A stretch of DNA of 64,000 nucleotides from Geobacillus thermocatenulatus (lineage in GTDB: Bacteria > Bacillota > Bacilli > Bacillales > Anoxybacillaceae), in the NCBI RefSeq assembly GCF_002217655.1, contig NZ_NEWK01000001.1, positions 1,188,001 through 1,252,000 of the forward strand, read 5' to 3'. The notes under the pieces are model-generated. The model saw only the letters and a list, made by a program, of their open reading frames with translations. It was not told where the DNA came from and did no database searches. The position numbers were made by a program, and so were the translations under genes. How positions within the stretch are numbered: the first letter of the stretch is position 1; every line of letters begins with the position of its first letter. Of the stretch, positions 20,094-30,748 are shown in pieces.

Positions 20094-20317
20094 GGTAATC
20101 CCCTTTCCTGTGTTGCGAATGTTTATATAGATTACATTTGGTATGTTAAGAAAAACAAGAACATTATTATGACTAATTACCATGAAAGTTCGATTATTTC
20201 CTATTGCCCTTTGGCTGCTGTTGATGGTAGTATAAATTTAGAACATTCGCATGACTCGTTGATGAGGGCGTTTGTTAGTATGCCCGATATGGAAACAATT
20301 TATTGATGGGCGGATGA

Positions 20318-20560
20318 CGGCAAGGGGAGAGACTACGAAATGTAGCGCCGAAGGAGCAAGCGGAAACGCGAATCTCTCAGGCAAAAAGACTCTTGCTTGA
20401 CGCAGCTCTGGAGAGCGCCTGCTGAAAGCAGGCCACCCAAGAGGAAACCGATCGGCCCCATGGACCGCGAACGGACGCGCCAAACGGGCCGGCGGGAAAC
20501 TTTCAGGTGCCAGGACAGAGCCCCCTTACTTGTTGATAGGGGGAAGTCTGTCCTTTTTTG
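20318..20560 (+). promoter_or_regulatory. Tandem glycine riboswitch with terminator, upstream of gcvT
   Basis: Two aptamers in series. The first (about 20322-20397) has GGGGAGAGAC, CGCCGAAGGAGCAAG and AATCTCTCAGGCAAAAAGAC. The second (about 20405-20520) has CTCTGGAGAGCG, CACCCAAGAGGAAACC and GGGAAACTTTCAGG followed by AGGACAGAG. The expression platform is the stem GGACAG...CTGTCC enclosing CCCCC/GGGGG with six T residues (20513-20558). Glycine binding is expected to prevent termination and turn on glycine cleavage. The 20094-20317 interval before it otherwise holds only a doubtful 45-codon ORF. Confidence 0.93.
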
Positions 20561-21718: not shown

Positions 21719-23065
21719 GTGCTCCATCGTTATTTGCCGATGACGGAAGAAGACAAACAGGAGATGTTGAAGACGATCGGCGTCGCCTCGATTGACGACT
21801 TGTTTGCCGATATTCCAGAACAAGTCCGCTTCCGCGGCGAGCTGAAGGTGAAACCGGCCAAATCCGAGCCGGAGCTGTGGAAAGAGCTTGCGGCCTTAGC
21901 GAAAAAAAACGCCAGCGTAAAACAATACGTTTCCTTTTTAGGAGCCGGGGTGTACGACCATTATATTCCAGTCGTCGTCGACCATGTCCTGTCGCGCTCT
22001 GAATTTTATACGGCCTATACGCCGTATCAACCGGAAATTTCCCAAGGCGAGCTGCAGGCGATTTTTGAGTTTCAAACGATGGTGTGCGAGCTGACCGGCA
22101 TGGATGTCGCCAACTCGTCGATGTACGACGGCGGCACGGCGCTTGCCGAAGCAGTGCTTCTTAGCGCCGCGCATACGAAGCGGAAGAAAGTGCTCATCTC
22201 GACCGCCGTTCATCCGCAATATCGGGAAGTTGTGCGCACGTACGCCAAAGGACAGAAGCTCGAAGTGAAAGAAATTCCGTATGACGGCGGCATCACCGAT
22301 CTTAAGGCGCTTGAAGCGGAAATGGGGGATGATGTGGCGTGCGTTGTCGTCCAATACCCGAACTTTTTTGGCCAAATCGAGCTGCTGAACGCGATCGCGC
22401 CGCTTGCGCATGAAAAGAAAAGCTTGTTTGTCGTCGCCAGCAATCCATTGGCGCTTGGTGTGTTGACTCCACCCGGAGCGTTTGGCGCCGACATTGTGGT
22501 CGGCGACATGCAGCCATTTGGCATTCCGACGCAATTTGGCGGCCCGCATTGCGGCTATTTCGCTGTCAAAGCGCCGCTCATGCGCAAAATTCCAGGCCGT
22601 CTTGTCGGGCAGACGACCGATGAGGACGGGCGCCGCGGATTTGTCTTGACGCTTCAAGCGCGCGAACAGCACATCCGCCGCGATAAGGCGACATCCAACA
22701 TTTGCTCCAATCAAGCGTTAAACGCCTTGGCCGCTTCCGTTGCGCTGTCGGCGCTTGGCAAGCGGGGCGTGAAAGAAATGGCGGCGATGAATATTCAAAA
22801 AGCGCATTATGCGAAGGTGGAACTTGAAAAACGCGGACTGTCGTCGCCGTTTGCCGGTCCGTTTTTCAACGAGTTCGTCATCCGGCTTGGACGGCCGGTT
22901 TCTGAGGTGAACGATCGCCTGCTCGAAAAAGGAATCATCGGCGGCTATGACCTTGGGGCTGACTATCCGGAGCTTGCCGGTCATATGCTTGTTGCTGTCA
23001 CCGAACTGCGGACAAAAGAAGAAATCGATCGGTTTGTCAATGAATTGGGGGATGGCCATGCGTAA
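21719..23065 (+). CDS. gcvPA: Glycine dehydrogenase (decarboxylating) subunit 1
   Basis: 448 aa from GTG 21719, placed after AAGGAAAGGGG; the sequence then begins [20 protein letters not shown], matching the B. subtilis protein length and start. It is one half of the split P protein, which decarboxylates glycine with [18 protein letters not shown] and the [16 protein letters not shown] segments are the typical N-terminal fold. The PLP lysine lies in the partner subunit. It ends 8 bp into gcvPB. Confidence 0.96.
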
Positions 23066-27637: not shown

Positions 27638-27689
27638 AACAATATATAGTATGATTTTCGTAAAAAATCATACTATATATTGTTTTTTT
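27638..27689 (+). promoter_or_regulatory. Perfect 21-bp inverted repeat with NrdR-box-like halves and a T run, upstream of nrdJ
   Basis: Arms at 27638-27658 and 27664-27684 are exact reverse complements with a 5-nt loop, followed by TTTTT. Inside each arm lies a box of the NrdR type (ACAATATATAGT and ACTATATATTGT), with centres 33 bp apart, about three helical turns, as for paired NrdR sites. A weak promoter (TTGTTT 27680-27685, 17 bp, TAAGGT 27703-27708) overlaps the second box. It could act as operator, lipM terminator, or both. A 17-bp T tract (27590-27606) lies just upstream. The rest of 27510-27771 shows no gene. Confidence 0.6.
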
Positions 27690-27771: not shown

Positions 27772-28557
27772 ATGACGGTGGCGTCGTCCGAAAAAATGAA
27801 AATCAATATTGACAAGCTGAACGAGGATATTCGCCTATTTCCGCAAGTGCATCCGATTACGCCGGATATGCACATCACCCATAAAGGCGTATCCCGTTTG
27901 GTCATGCTTGACCGTTATTCGTTTAAGGATACGGAAAAGCTGACGCTCACACCGGGCGATTTCGTTGTGTTGACGATCAAGGAGGATCCGAAATTCCCGG
28001 CACGAGGGCTCGGGTTTATCGTCGACATCGATTGGGAGGCGAAAAAGGCGCGCGTCCAGGTGGAGGATGAGTACCGGCACGTGCTCGAAGGGGAAGAGGC
28101 AAAGACCGGCATTGTCGTTCGGTCGCTTGACATTATCGACAAGCCGCTCGAGATTTTCTATGAGCAAATCGCCAAGCGCAATGCGACCGGGCTGGCGGCG
28201 GTGGAAAAGACGGAAGAAAAGCGGAAAGAGTGGTTCGAAAAGTTTTATCAAGAGCTCGCCAGCTTGAATTTTGTTCCGGCCGGCCGCGTGTTGTACGGGG
28301 CGGGTTCAGGCAAGGAAGTGACGTATTTCAACTGCTATGTGATGCCGTTTGTGAAAGACTCGCGCGAAGGCATTTCCGAACATCGGAAGCAGGTGATGGA
28401 AATTATGAGCCGCGGCGGCGGCGTTGGGACGAACGGCTCGACATTGCGGCCGCGCCATACGCTTGCGCGCGGGGTGAACGGCAAATCGTCCGGGTCGGTC
28501 TCATGGCTTGACGACATTGCGAAGCTGACCCACCTTGTTGAGCAAGGTGGCTCCCGT
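27772..28557 (+). CDS. nrdJ: Adenosylcobalamin-dependent ribonucleotide reductase NrdJ, exon 1
   Basis: Codons 1-262 of a class II reductase, ending ...WLDDIAKLTHLVEQGGSR. It begins at ATG 27772 after GGAG. The enzyme makes deoxyribonucleotides with coenzyme B12 and does not need oxygen. The N-terminal effector region and the first active-site Cys (TYFNCYVM) are visible. An in-frame stop follows immediately at 28558 because a group I intron is inserted; translation would truncate unless the RNA is spliced. Joined to 28961-30748 the product is 857 aa, with the join inside a conserved GGSRRGAQM loop. Confidence 0.93.
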
Positions 28558-28960
28558 TAATAAGGCGCCAGACGGCGGGAGTAAAATCTCGCGAATTGCT
28601 GGAACACCCTAAAGCCAACTTGACCACAACGCAGCCGGTGACGGCAGACGTGACGGTTGGAAAACAAGTTGGATGCAACAATGGGCAACCAGCAGCCAAG
28701 CATCTCTGGAAACGGAGATGAAGGTTCAACGACTATTGAAACTTCCTACAGCCCTCGATACAATGATGATAACGAACGTTGTTTCGAGGGGAGAGAGGGC
28801 CATGGAAGGAGTAAATCGTAGCTTATGGCGACGAGGCTACGAGGCGCGAGACAGGGAAGCATTCTCTTCCCTGATGATATAGTCTGATCTCCGACCGAAA
28901 GGCGGAGAGCTAGGCAGAAATGACCTAGCCCACTCGTGAAAGCGAGTGAGTAACAATGTG
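28558..28960 (+). ncRNA. Group I intron (subgroup IA type) interrupting nrdJ
   Basis: 403 nt without a homing-endonuclease ORF. Paired by eye: P1, exon GCTCCCGT (28550-28557) with the internal guide GCGGGAGT (28575-28582), placing the U-G pair at the 5' site. P3 is TCTCGCG/CGCGAGA (28587-28593/28845-28851). P4 is TGCTGG/CCAGCA (28597-28602/28689-28694). P5 is CCC/GGG, P6 CATCTC/GAGATG. P7 is GACTA/TAGTC (28731-28735/28880-28884). Extra stems CCCTCGA/TCGAGGG and CGTAGC/GCTACG fit P7.1/P7.2. P8 is AGGGAAG/CTTCCCT. P9 stems follow, and the last base is G (28960). The core GATATAGTCTGATC is the classic S element. Confidence 0.93.
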
Positions 28961-30748
28961 CGCGGCGCCCAAATGATTATGCTGGCCGACTGGCACCCGG
29001 ACATTATCGAATTCATCGTCTCGAAAATGCAAAACCCTCGCATTTTGCGCTACCTGCTTGAAAATATGGAAGACGAGGGCATCAAAAAAGCAGCGCGCGA
29101 CAAGCTGAAATTCACGCCGCTCACCGAGCGGGAGCGGGCGATGTACGAAGCGATCGTCCGGTACAAAAACGCGCCTGACTACGGCGGATTCACTGAAGAG
29201 ATCATTAAAGACGCCGAAGAAAAACTGCGCGCCGGCGGTACATATACCGTGCACAATCCTGACTTTTTGACCGGCGCGAACATTTCCGTCTGCTTGACGA
29301 AAGAGTTCATGGAAGCGGTCGAAAAGGACGAAGAATACGCGCTCCGCTTCCCGGACGTGGAAACCTATTCCGAAGAGGAAATGCGCATTTACAACGAAAA
29401 ATGGCATGAAGTCGGCGATGTACGCGAATGGGAACAAATGGGCTATCGCGTCCGCGTCTACCGAAAAATCCGCGCCCGCGAGCTCTGGAAGCTGATCAAC
29501 ATTTGCGCGACGTATTCGGCCGAGCCGGGCATTTTCTTCATCGACAACGCCAACGAAATGACGAACGCCCGCGCGTACGGGCAAAAAGTCGTGGCCACCA
29601 ACCCGTGCGGGGAACAACCGTTGGCGCCGTATTCGGTATGCAACCTAGCCGCCATTAACTTGGCGAACATGGTCGACAAAGAACGGAAAGTCGTGGACTA
29701 CGAAAAACTGAAACGCACAGTCGAAATCGGGGTGCGGATGCAAGACAACGTCATTGACGCTACGCCATACTTCCTTGAGGAAAACAAAAAACAAGCGCTC
29801 GGTGAGCGCCGCATCGGCCTTGGCGTCATGGGGCTTGCCGACTTGCTCATTTACTGCGAAAAAGCGTACGGCTCCGAGGAAGGAAATCAACTTGTGGACG
29901 AGCTGTTCCGCACAATCGCCACGACCGCTTACCGGGCCTCGATCGAGTTGGCGAAAGAAAAAGGCAGCTTCCCGTTTTTGGTCGGCGAAACGGAGGAAGA
30001 GACGCGCAAGCTGCGTGAAGCGTTCATCAACACTGGCTACATGAAACGGATGCCGGAAGACATTCGCCAAGATATTTTGAAATACGGCATCCGCAACTCG
30101 CACTTGCTGACGGTGGCGCCGACGGGATCGACAGGGACAATGGTCGGCGTCTCAACCGGGCTTGAGCCGTACTTCTCGTTCTCGTACTACCGGAGCGGGC
30201 GCTTGGGCAAATTTATCGAAGTGAAAGCGGACATTGTCCAAGAATATTTGGACAAACATCCGGAAGCCGATCCGAACCACTTGCCGCCTTGGTTTGTGAC
30301 GGCGATGGACTTGCCGCCGGAAGCGCACGCCGATGTGCAGTGCATCATTCAACGCTGGGTCGACTCGAGCTTGTCAAAAACGGTCAACGCGCCGAAGGGC
30401 TACACCGTCGAGCAAGTGCAAAAAGTGTATGAGCGTCTGTGGCGCGGCGGCGCGAAAGGCGGAACCGTCTATGTCGACGGCAGCCGCGATGCGCAAGTGT
30501 TGACGTTAAAGGCTGAGGAGAATCAGATTGAAGAGCAACTTGAACTGCTTCCAGAGGAGCTCGAGGAAAAAGAAACGAAACGCCCCGTCGTGCTTGTGGA
30601 TACGATTCAAGATGTGCGCGCCACCGATGTGACGATCGGTTCCGAAATCGGCAATATTTGTCCGATTTGCCGCGAAGGGACGATCGAAGAGATCGGCGGC
30701 TGCAATACGTGCACGAACTGCGGCGCGCAGCTGAAGTGCGGGTTGTAA
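28961..30748 (+). CDS. nrdJ: Adenosylcobalamin-dependent ribonucleotide reductase NrdJ, exon 2
   Basis: Codons 263-857 of the spliced gene. It begins RGAQMIMLADWHPDIIEFI and contains NPCGEQPLAPYSVCNLAAIN (the NxCxE catalytic motif), APTGSTGTMVGVSTGLEP (phosphate-binding finger), and the C-terminal zinc-ribbon-like CPICREGT...CNTCTNCGAQLKCGL with redox cysteines. No ribosome site or start codon fits an independent gene, so expression must come from the spliced message. Confidence 0.93.
   Translation, partial: RGAQMIMLADWHPDIIEFIVSKMQNPRILRYLLENMEDEGIKKAARDKLKFTPLTERERAMYEAIVRYKNAPDYGGFTEEIIKDAEEKLRAGGTYTVHNPDFLTGANISVCLTKEFMEAVEKDEEYALRFPDVETYSEEEMRIYNEKWHEVGDVREWEQMGYRVRVYRKIRARELWKLINICATYSAEPGIFFIDNANEMTNARAYGQKVVATNPCGEQPLAPYSVCNLAAINLANMVDKERKVVDYEKLKRTVEIGVRMQDNVIDATPYFLEENKKQALGERRIGLGVMGLADLLIYCEKAYGSEEGNQLVDELFRTIATTAYRASIELAKEKGSFPFLVGETEEETRKLREAFINTGYMKRMPEDIRQDILKYGIRNSHLLTVAPTGSTGTMVGVSTGLEPYFSFSYYRSGRLGKFIEVKADIVQEYLDKHPEADPNHLPPWFVTAMDLPPEAHADVQCIIQRWVDSSLSKTVNAPKGYTVEQVQKVYERLWRGGAKGGTVYVDGSRDAQVLTLKAEENQIEEQLELLPEELEEKETKRPVVLVDTIQDVRATDVTIGSEIGNICPICREGTIEEIGGCNTCTNCGAQLKCGL

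Follow-up and report, generated by a model that had tools for sequence, protein, structure and literature searches.

A group I intron without an endonuclease gene in the class II ribonucleotide reductase gene nrdJ of Geobacillus thermocatenulatus, and its homing-type relatives

What interrupts the class II ribonucleotide reductase gene nrdJ in Geobacillus thermocatenulatus, can the interruption leave the RNA, and how did it come to lack a homing endonuclease gene? We addressed these questions in a 64,000-nucleotide stretch of DNA (the window; its genome is G000) by comparison with genomes of the same family and order.

Intron boundaries and the host gene

A TAA at 28558 interrupts the nrdJ frame begun at 27772, and the frame reopens at 28961 and closes at 30748 (Table 1). 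Exon 1 ends in CGT, the insert in G, and exon 2 starts with CGC; removal of the 403 nt joins the exons into 857 codons reading GGSR-RGAQM across the junction. Against Rfam RF00028, the insert scored 75 bits (gathering score 50, E 3.3e-17), the single match to that model in an Rfam scan of the whole 3.56 Mb genome; the match starts at 28526 because Rfam places P1 on an exon hairpin. The nrdJ segment was matched in all 41 family genomes searched (nine genera), with the insertion point (site 1) filled in 18 by introns of 348 to 1220 nt and exactly empty in 23; within the genus, the exons directly abut in 10 of 14 genomes. The RF00028 score and the abutting exons in relatives bear out what a sequence-only reading of the window had proposed, namely a group I intron with these exact boundaries, and the terminal G on which that reading had remarked ends all 18 site-1 introns. 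We regard it as confirmed that 28558-28960 is a group I intron after Arg262 of class II nrdJ.

Table 1. Features of the nrdJ locus, in window positions
Feature	Position	Strand	Observation
Perfect 21-bp inverted repeat upstream of nrdJ	27638..27684		sequence
nrdJ exon 1	27772..28557	+	262 codons, last codons GGC TCC CGT; dN/dS 0.042 vs G003
P1	28550-28557 (exon) with 28575-28582 (internal guide)	+	U28557.G28575 at 5' splice site
Group I intron, 403 nt	28558..28960	+	RF00028, 75 bits; last base G28960 is the omega-G
In-frame stop, first intron codon	28558..28560	+	stop in 18/18 family introns
Candidate P10 strand GGCGCC in P1 loop	28564..28569	+	complements exon 2 at 28964-28969; paired in minimum-energy fold
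P3	28587-28593 with 28845-28851	+	C-G to U-A, both sides changed, 6/13
P4	28597-28602 with 28689-28694	+	encloses P5 and its extension
P6 and P6a, GAAA loop	28695..28725	+	sequence pairing
P7, guanosine-binding helix	28731-28735 with 28880-28884	+	pseudoknot with P3; fully paired in 12/13
P7.1	28742-28746/28804-28808	+	sequence pairing, alignment
26-codon mini-ORF MEGVNR...FSSLMI	28802..28882	+	both ends in common with 294-aa G012 endonuclease
P7.2	28816-28822/28836-28842	+	6/7 pairs changed on both sides
P8	28853..28872	+	loop is the endonuclease gene position in relatives
P9, P9.1, P9.2	28888..28948	+	8 pairs with both-side changes
nrdJ exon 2	28961..30748	+	595 codons and stop; dN/dS 0.020 vs G003

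The host gene had been called a B12-dependent (class II) reductase, and the curated models agree: exon 2 exceeds the cut-offs of the NrdJ models PRK08115 (1265 bits, cut-off 854) and TIGR02504 (479 bits, cut-off 400), exon 1 alone reaches 514 bits, below the whole-protein cut-off, and NCBIfam PRK08115 and NrdJ_Z assign the gene to class II. In five comparisons with relatives with and without the intron, dN/dS was 0.01-0.04 for both exons, which are thus under purifying selection. This indicates that the NrdJ protein is kept, which implies in turn that the insert leaves the RNA, and we infer that the intron is spliced in vivo. A different account, that nrdJ is decaying or non-functional and carries a dead intron while a class I reductase does the work, could draw on the nrdA and nrdB genes found in the genome; we consider it extremely unlikely, given that both exons are fully open at these low dN/dS values and that P7, the omega-G, and P1 are conserved. 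The intron is real and, judged from its sequence, very probably active.

Upstream of nrdJ, the inverted repeat listed in Table 1 is one that we take to be a possible pair of NrdR operator boxes, or else a terminator. Elsewhere in the window, Rfam places a glycine riboswitch at 20314-20402, and the region downstream of it presumably holds glycine-cleavage-type genes (ORF at 22947).

As to where the insertion falls in the protein, the penultimate exon-1 residue, Ser261, aligns with residue 206 of Thermotoga maritima NrdJ, an alignment that supports the earlier placement of the insertion in the loop 2 region. By eye, Arg262 matches Arg298 of Escherichia coli NrdA, which PMC8772380 describes as a loop 2 residue contacting the substrate.

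Ribozyme anatomy and covariation

The window sequence forms all of P1, P3-P8, P7.1, P7.2, P9, P9.1, and P9.2, including the P3-P7 pseudoknot together with P4-P6 and P8 that defines a group I intron. Helices P7.1 and P7.2 between the 5' strand of P7 and the 3' strand of P3, which we take to mark subgroup IA, are present there and covary. Covariation was scored on 13 of the 18 family introns, aligned with MAFFT; G008, G012, G016, G023, and G033 were omitted because of their long endonuclease sequence. The canonical helices pair in 97.7% of the 1249 cells of these 13 introns, and 23 of the 97 pairs are changed on both sides, against a mean of 13.2 in shuffled alignments (0 of 500 shuffles reach 23) and at most 8 when the helix partners are slid; further pair types, one of five measures in all, was not above the shuffles (39 versus 37.6, reached by 166 of 500). 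The changes on both sides fall in P3, P7.1, P7.2, P8, the P9 stems, and the P5 extension, and none were seen among the 13 introns in P1, P4, P6, and P7. The P1 to P9 anatomy assigned by the sequence-only reading thus holds up, in that its helices form in the window and, taken together, are changed on both sides more often than in shuffles.

P1 is invariant within the family, and all 13 aligned homologues have the U.G pair at the 5' splice site. Outside the family, G392 has the serine codon AGT in place of TCC and a guide altered to match, and of 48 wider introns, themselves picked by a pattern fixing most of the guide, 42 are paired at the variable P1 position and 6 are not. Immediately before the splice site, all 18 intron-bearing alleles have the codon CGT and all 23 intron-free alleles have CGC or CGG, as would be expected if a U at position -1 is required. 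The window intron also folds with an energy z of -6.26, and 0 of 100 shuffles were as low. Its minimum-energy fold, of a kind that cannot display pseudoknots, shows P4, P5, P6a, P8, and the P9 stems, along with the candidate P10, a strand proposed from its complementarity to exon 2; P1, P3, and P7 are missing from this fold. In the intron of G024 (L082), two P7 pairs are broken, and that copy may splice poorly.

Stops in the first codon of such introns are reported (PMC3073962, PMC3984707) to keep ribosomes out of the ribozyme, and the stop that forms the first intron codon throughout the family is in line with that role. In the splicing pathway that we propose, a ribosome translating exon 1 would halt at the first intron codon and leave the ribozyme free to fold, the U.G pair in P1 would position the 5' splice site, and exogenous guanosine bound in P7 would attack it; the freed 3'-OH of the exon would then attack after omega-G28960, joining Arg262 to Arg263.

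Endonuclease genes and movement of the intron lineage

The 18 site-1 introns of the family present the endonuclease gene in several states. Three carry an open LAGLIDADG ORF in P8 (G012, 294 aa; G016, 293; G033, 297), one an ORF of 282 aa that stops 11 residues early (G023), four only remnants (G008, 107 codons; G025, 26; G031, 40; G038, 27), two a scar (G000, the window, and G003, each with 26 codons carrying both ends of the endonuclease frame), and eight nothing. The G012 ORF matches PF14528 above the cut-off (E 7e-10) and a resolvase-type helix-turn-helix slightly below its cut-off. The window genome yielded no endonuclease homologue at E 1e-10, and its intron holds only the 26-codon ORF, so that the copy has no homing endonuclease of its own by which it could be called mobile. 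Because the endonuclease frame starts and ends inside the ribozyme core, the mini-ORF by itself proves nothing; such reach into the core fits the "core creep" treated in PMC3073962. The mini-ORF is probably the scar of a lost endonuclease gene.

How far this scar can be trusted depends on where the window intron falls among its relatives. In the intron tree, the ten endonuclease-type introns stand together with modest support (69/98 for the split between two intron clades), and G000 and G003 lie within a seven-row clade (87/85) and, within a four-row clade, beside G012 and G008 (100/100); a clade of G000, G003, and G012 without G008 is weakly rejected (p 0.03). It could be argued that the window intron never had an endonuclease and that the genes in P8 of its relatives are later gains: neither an endonuclease gene nor the long insertion between the P7.1 strands is present in eight family introns, which measure 348-358 nt, and a review (PMC3073962) holds that introns began without ORFs. 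Against this, G000 and G003 nest with introns that bear genes or remnants, they share the long P7.1 insertion, and orthologous endonucleases occupy the same place in other families (see below), so that we give this reading a low probability. The nesting together with the damaged genes in relatives makes loss the simplest reading, and we infer that the direction in the window was loss rather than gain. The earlier description of the intron as endonuclease-free is therefore right for the window copy and incomplete as an account of it: with open and damaged genes in its relatives, the state looks derived within a homing lineage. As a whole, we consider it very likely that the window holds an immobile, still-splicing intron of a homing lineage that would have spread by means of a LAGLIDADG endonuclease encoded in P8, as in its relatives, and would have become immobile on losing the gene while retaining splicing.

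To follow the endonuclease beyond the family, we searched 397 genomes of the order with the G012 protein (E 1e-10). Of the 31 genomes matched, three belong to the family (G012, G016, and, as a distant match, G040); among the other 28, 12 match at 55-71% identity (G087 over 85 residues only). All 12 of these close orthologues have nrdJ on both sides, and the 16 more distant loci tested, at about 28-34% identity, lack nrdJ; the flank test left out two weak matches without a locus. Among its close orthologues, as judged from these flanks, the endonuclease is found only in this nrdJ region. Eight of the 12 sit exactly at site 1, and the remaining four have their 5' junction displaced downstream by 3 nt (G260) or 6 nt (G394, G101, and G204). 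In these shifted introns (L179, L184, L185, and L187), the guide matches the new exon sequence by eye, and the 3' junction was confirmed for two (G394 and G204). Both LAGLIDADG motifs are retained in 10 of 10 aligned orthologues (14 were found; G374 and G204, with an internal stop, and G287 and G087, which are partial, were omitted), and the endonuclease is predicted to cleave DNA.

A separate pattern search with the guide, P3, and P4 matched 48 genome records from Bacillus, Neobacillus, Anoxybacillus, Geobacillus, Lysinibacillus, and related genera. Exon 1, ending in ...CCCGT, was found in all 48 and the downstream exon in the fetched DNA of 44; similarity to the endonuclease extends over at least 189 residues in 12, is fragmentary in 6, and is lacking in 30, some loci ending before the gene position.

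Whether the intron has moved between species was judged against the rpoB tree, on which site 1 needs at least 12 changes over the 41 genomes. The introns of G008 and G012 group at 100/100, and rpoB rejects these two as a pair (p 6e-11) as well as a clade of the four intron-bearing members of the genus (p 6e-9); for the introns of the genus g3, too, a single clade is rejected (p 5e-6). This conflict between the trees indicates that the intron moved between species. Co-conversion of flanking exon sequence was considered and dropped: the flanking exons hold no clear block of identity beyond the P1 codons, and the flanks of G008 and G012 are 93 and 100% identical over the first 30 nt to each side of the site and 84-91% identical further out.

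Phages were considered as the means of transfer. A phage search with nrdJ and the intron gave 25 records, the best of which, from a Microcystis phage, matches exon 1 within a gene for a class II reductase; the remaining 19 of the matches listed cover part of the intron core only (70-78%), and five records outside that list fall in the 80-90% band. Matches to the endonuclease occur in 105 phage and 5 plasmid records, all below 60% identity. No viral contig matched the guide/P3/P4 pattern, and the endonuclease scan of viral contigs matched two stretches, neither of them a relative. A phage vehicle for the intron is thus neither shown nor excluded. Plasmid matches in Priestia and Pontibacillus gave no RF00028 at the gathering score. 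As an observation apart, the Priestia megaterium plasmid pFDU301A (L107) has a cobalamin riboswitch upstream of the stretch matching the nrdJ exons.

Reductase supply, known systems and further intron sites

What splicing may mean for the cell depends on its other reductases. Besides nrdJ, the genome carries a large-subunit ORF of 767 aa next to a small-subunit gene, a pair that we read as class I nrdA-nrdB because the two genes adjoin, and two further, weaker small-subunit-like matches; no match to NrdD was found in the genome. Given the oxygen properties tabulated for the reductase classes in PMC2795772, NrdJ alone among the reductases found should work independently of oxygen. With nrdA and nrdB present, dNTP supply need not rest on nrdJ, so that the proposal of a dNTP supply dependent on RNA splicing was too strong and was dropped; a dependence on splicing for low-oxygen growth only is plausible. 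One may ask whether the intron is kept as a switch, with splicing dependent on GTP, magnesium, or temperature gating oxygen-independent dNTP synthesis. NrdJ as the sole oxygen-independent reductase found would suit such a switch, as would flagellin introns of thermophilic Bacillus, reported to splice temperature-dependently; 23 of the 41 family genomes manage without the intron, and its patchy presence on the rpoB tree is more in keeping with a mobile element than with a retained regulator. We therefore doubt that a switch is the explanation and retain the immobile, still-splicing intron as our reading.

The window intron belongs to a known kind. In the Bacillus cereus group, group I introns occur in recA, nrdE, and nrdF and are said to resemble phage introns (PMC3984707); they are likewise group I introns in DNA-metabolism genes of Bacillus relatives, but those reductase genes are class Ib, and nrdJ is class II. 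Phage Twort has introns in nrdE and in orf142/orf182, with several group I introns per gene, and its nrdE endonuclease is described as HNH in PMC3653736. The likeness to nrdJ lies in several group I introns in one gene, a reductase gene included; Twort, however, is a phage and its reductase is class Ib. Staphylococcus phage records match the window intron core at about 70-73%. Closer to hand, flagellin group I introns of Geobacillus were reportedly described by Hayakawa and Ishizuka in 2009 and 2012; they share genus, thermophily, and a protein-coding host with the nrdJ intron and differ in the host gene. Other introns in the genus share a 143-nt stretch similar to the window intron core. One published intron reportedly carries an insertion sequence, unlike the nrdJ site-1 lineage, which carries a LAGLIDADG gene or none. 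We found no report on an nrdJ intron of Geobacillus or other Bacillus relatives in the open-licence literature. RNRdb, according to PMC2795772, includes more than 100 curated group I introns from reductase genes, and some of the nrdJ introns described here may already be recorded in it. What is new is the setting: a homing lineage tied to one site can be seen at several of its stages, and the gene that hosts it collects introns. Since one site is found empty or with an open, a damaged, or no endonuclease gene in related genomes, the gain-decay-loss cycle of homing introns becomes directly testable in a bacterial chromosomal gene.

That nrdJ collects introns is seen at two more sites in the family, NPCG/EQ in 15 and APTG/S in 5 of the 41 genomes; in G025 and G026, all three sites are occupied. 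In six genomes, the NPCG insert lacks an ORF and measures 256-259 nt; longer forms with extra sequence span 1191-1201 nt (seven genomes), 903 nt (G034), and 588 nt (G039). It ends in G, follows a GGT codon, and has a stop as its second codon in 15 of 15 (L110, L121, and others); the four insert-bearing loci searched gave no RF00028 match at E 0.01. In the G015 insert, helices like P3, P7, P8, and P9 can be paired by eye. The 311-aa ORF of the G017 insert had no Pfam match, and the 160-aa ORF of G034 has helix-turn-helix domains. Unrelated-looking ORFs stand at this same site in sister genomes, one of 160 aa (L122, G034) and one of the 314-aa G017 type (L123, G035). The APTG insert of G025 scored 88 bits against RF00028 and that of G019 matched in two pieces below the cut-off, with a 275-aa ORF matching HNH.

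Beyond the family, 12 of the 44 readable loci resume the protein at codon 273, a second intron following a 30-nt exon that reads RGAQMIMLAD (RGAQMIMQAD in one of the 12). This second intron, 10 codons past site 1, has a stop as its first codon in 12 of 12, and Rfam found both introns in 8 of the 8 loci scanned. For this micro-exon, our search of the open-licence literature gave a mitochondrial paper only. In a multi-intron nrdJ with micro-exons, annotation may call the gene split, frameshifted, or pseudo. A bolder reading would make nrdJ of Bacillus relatives a dedicated battlefield of group I introns, with at least four phase-0 sites around what we take to be its specificity and active-site loops, unrelated endonucleases, several stages of the homing cycle, and 30-nt micro-exons whose skipping would remove exactly ten loop 2 residues in frame and could yield an alternative reductase; taken together, we think this unlikely. 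The 12 micro-exon loci are L212, L213, L218, L219, L222, L224, L229, L231, L232, L235, L239, and L252.
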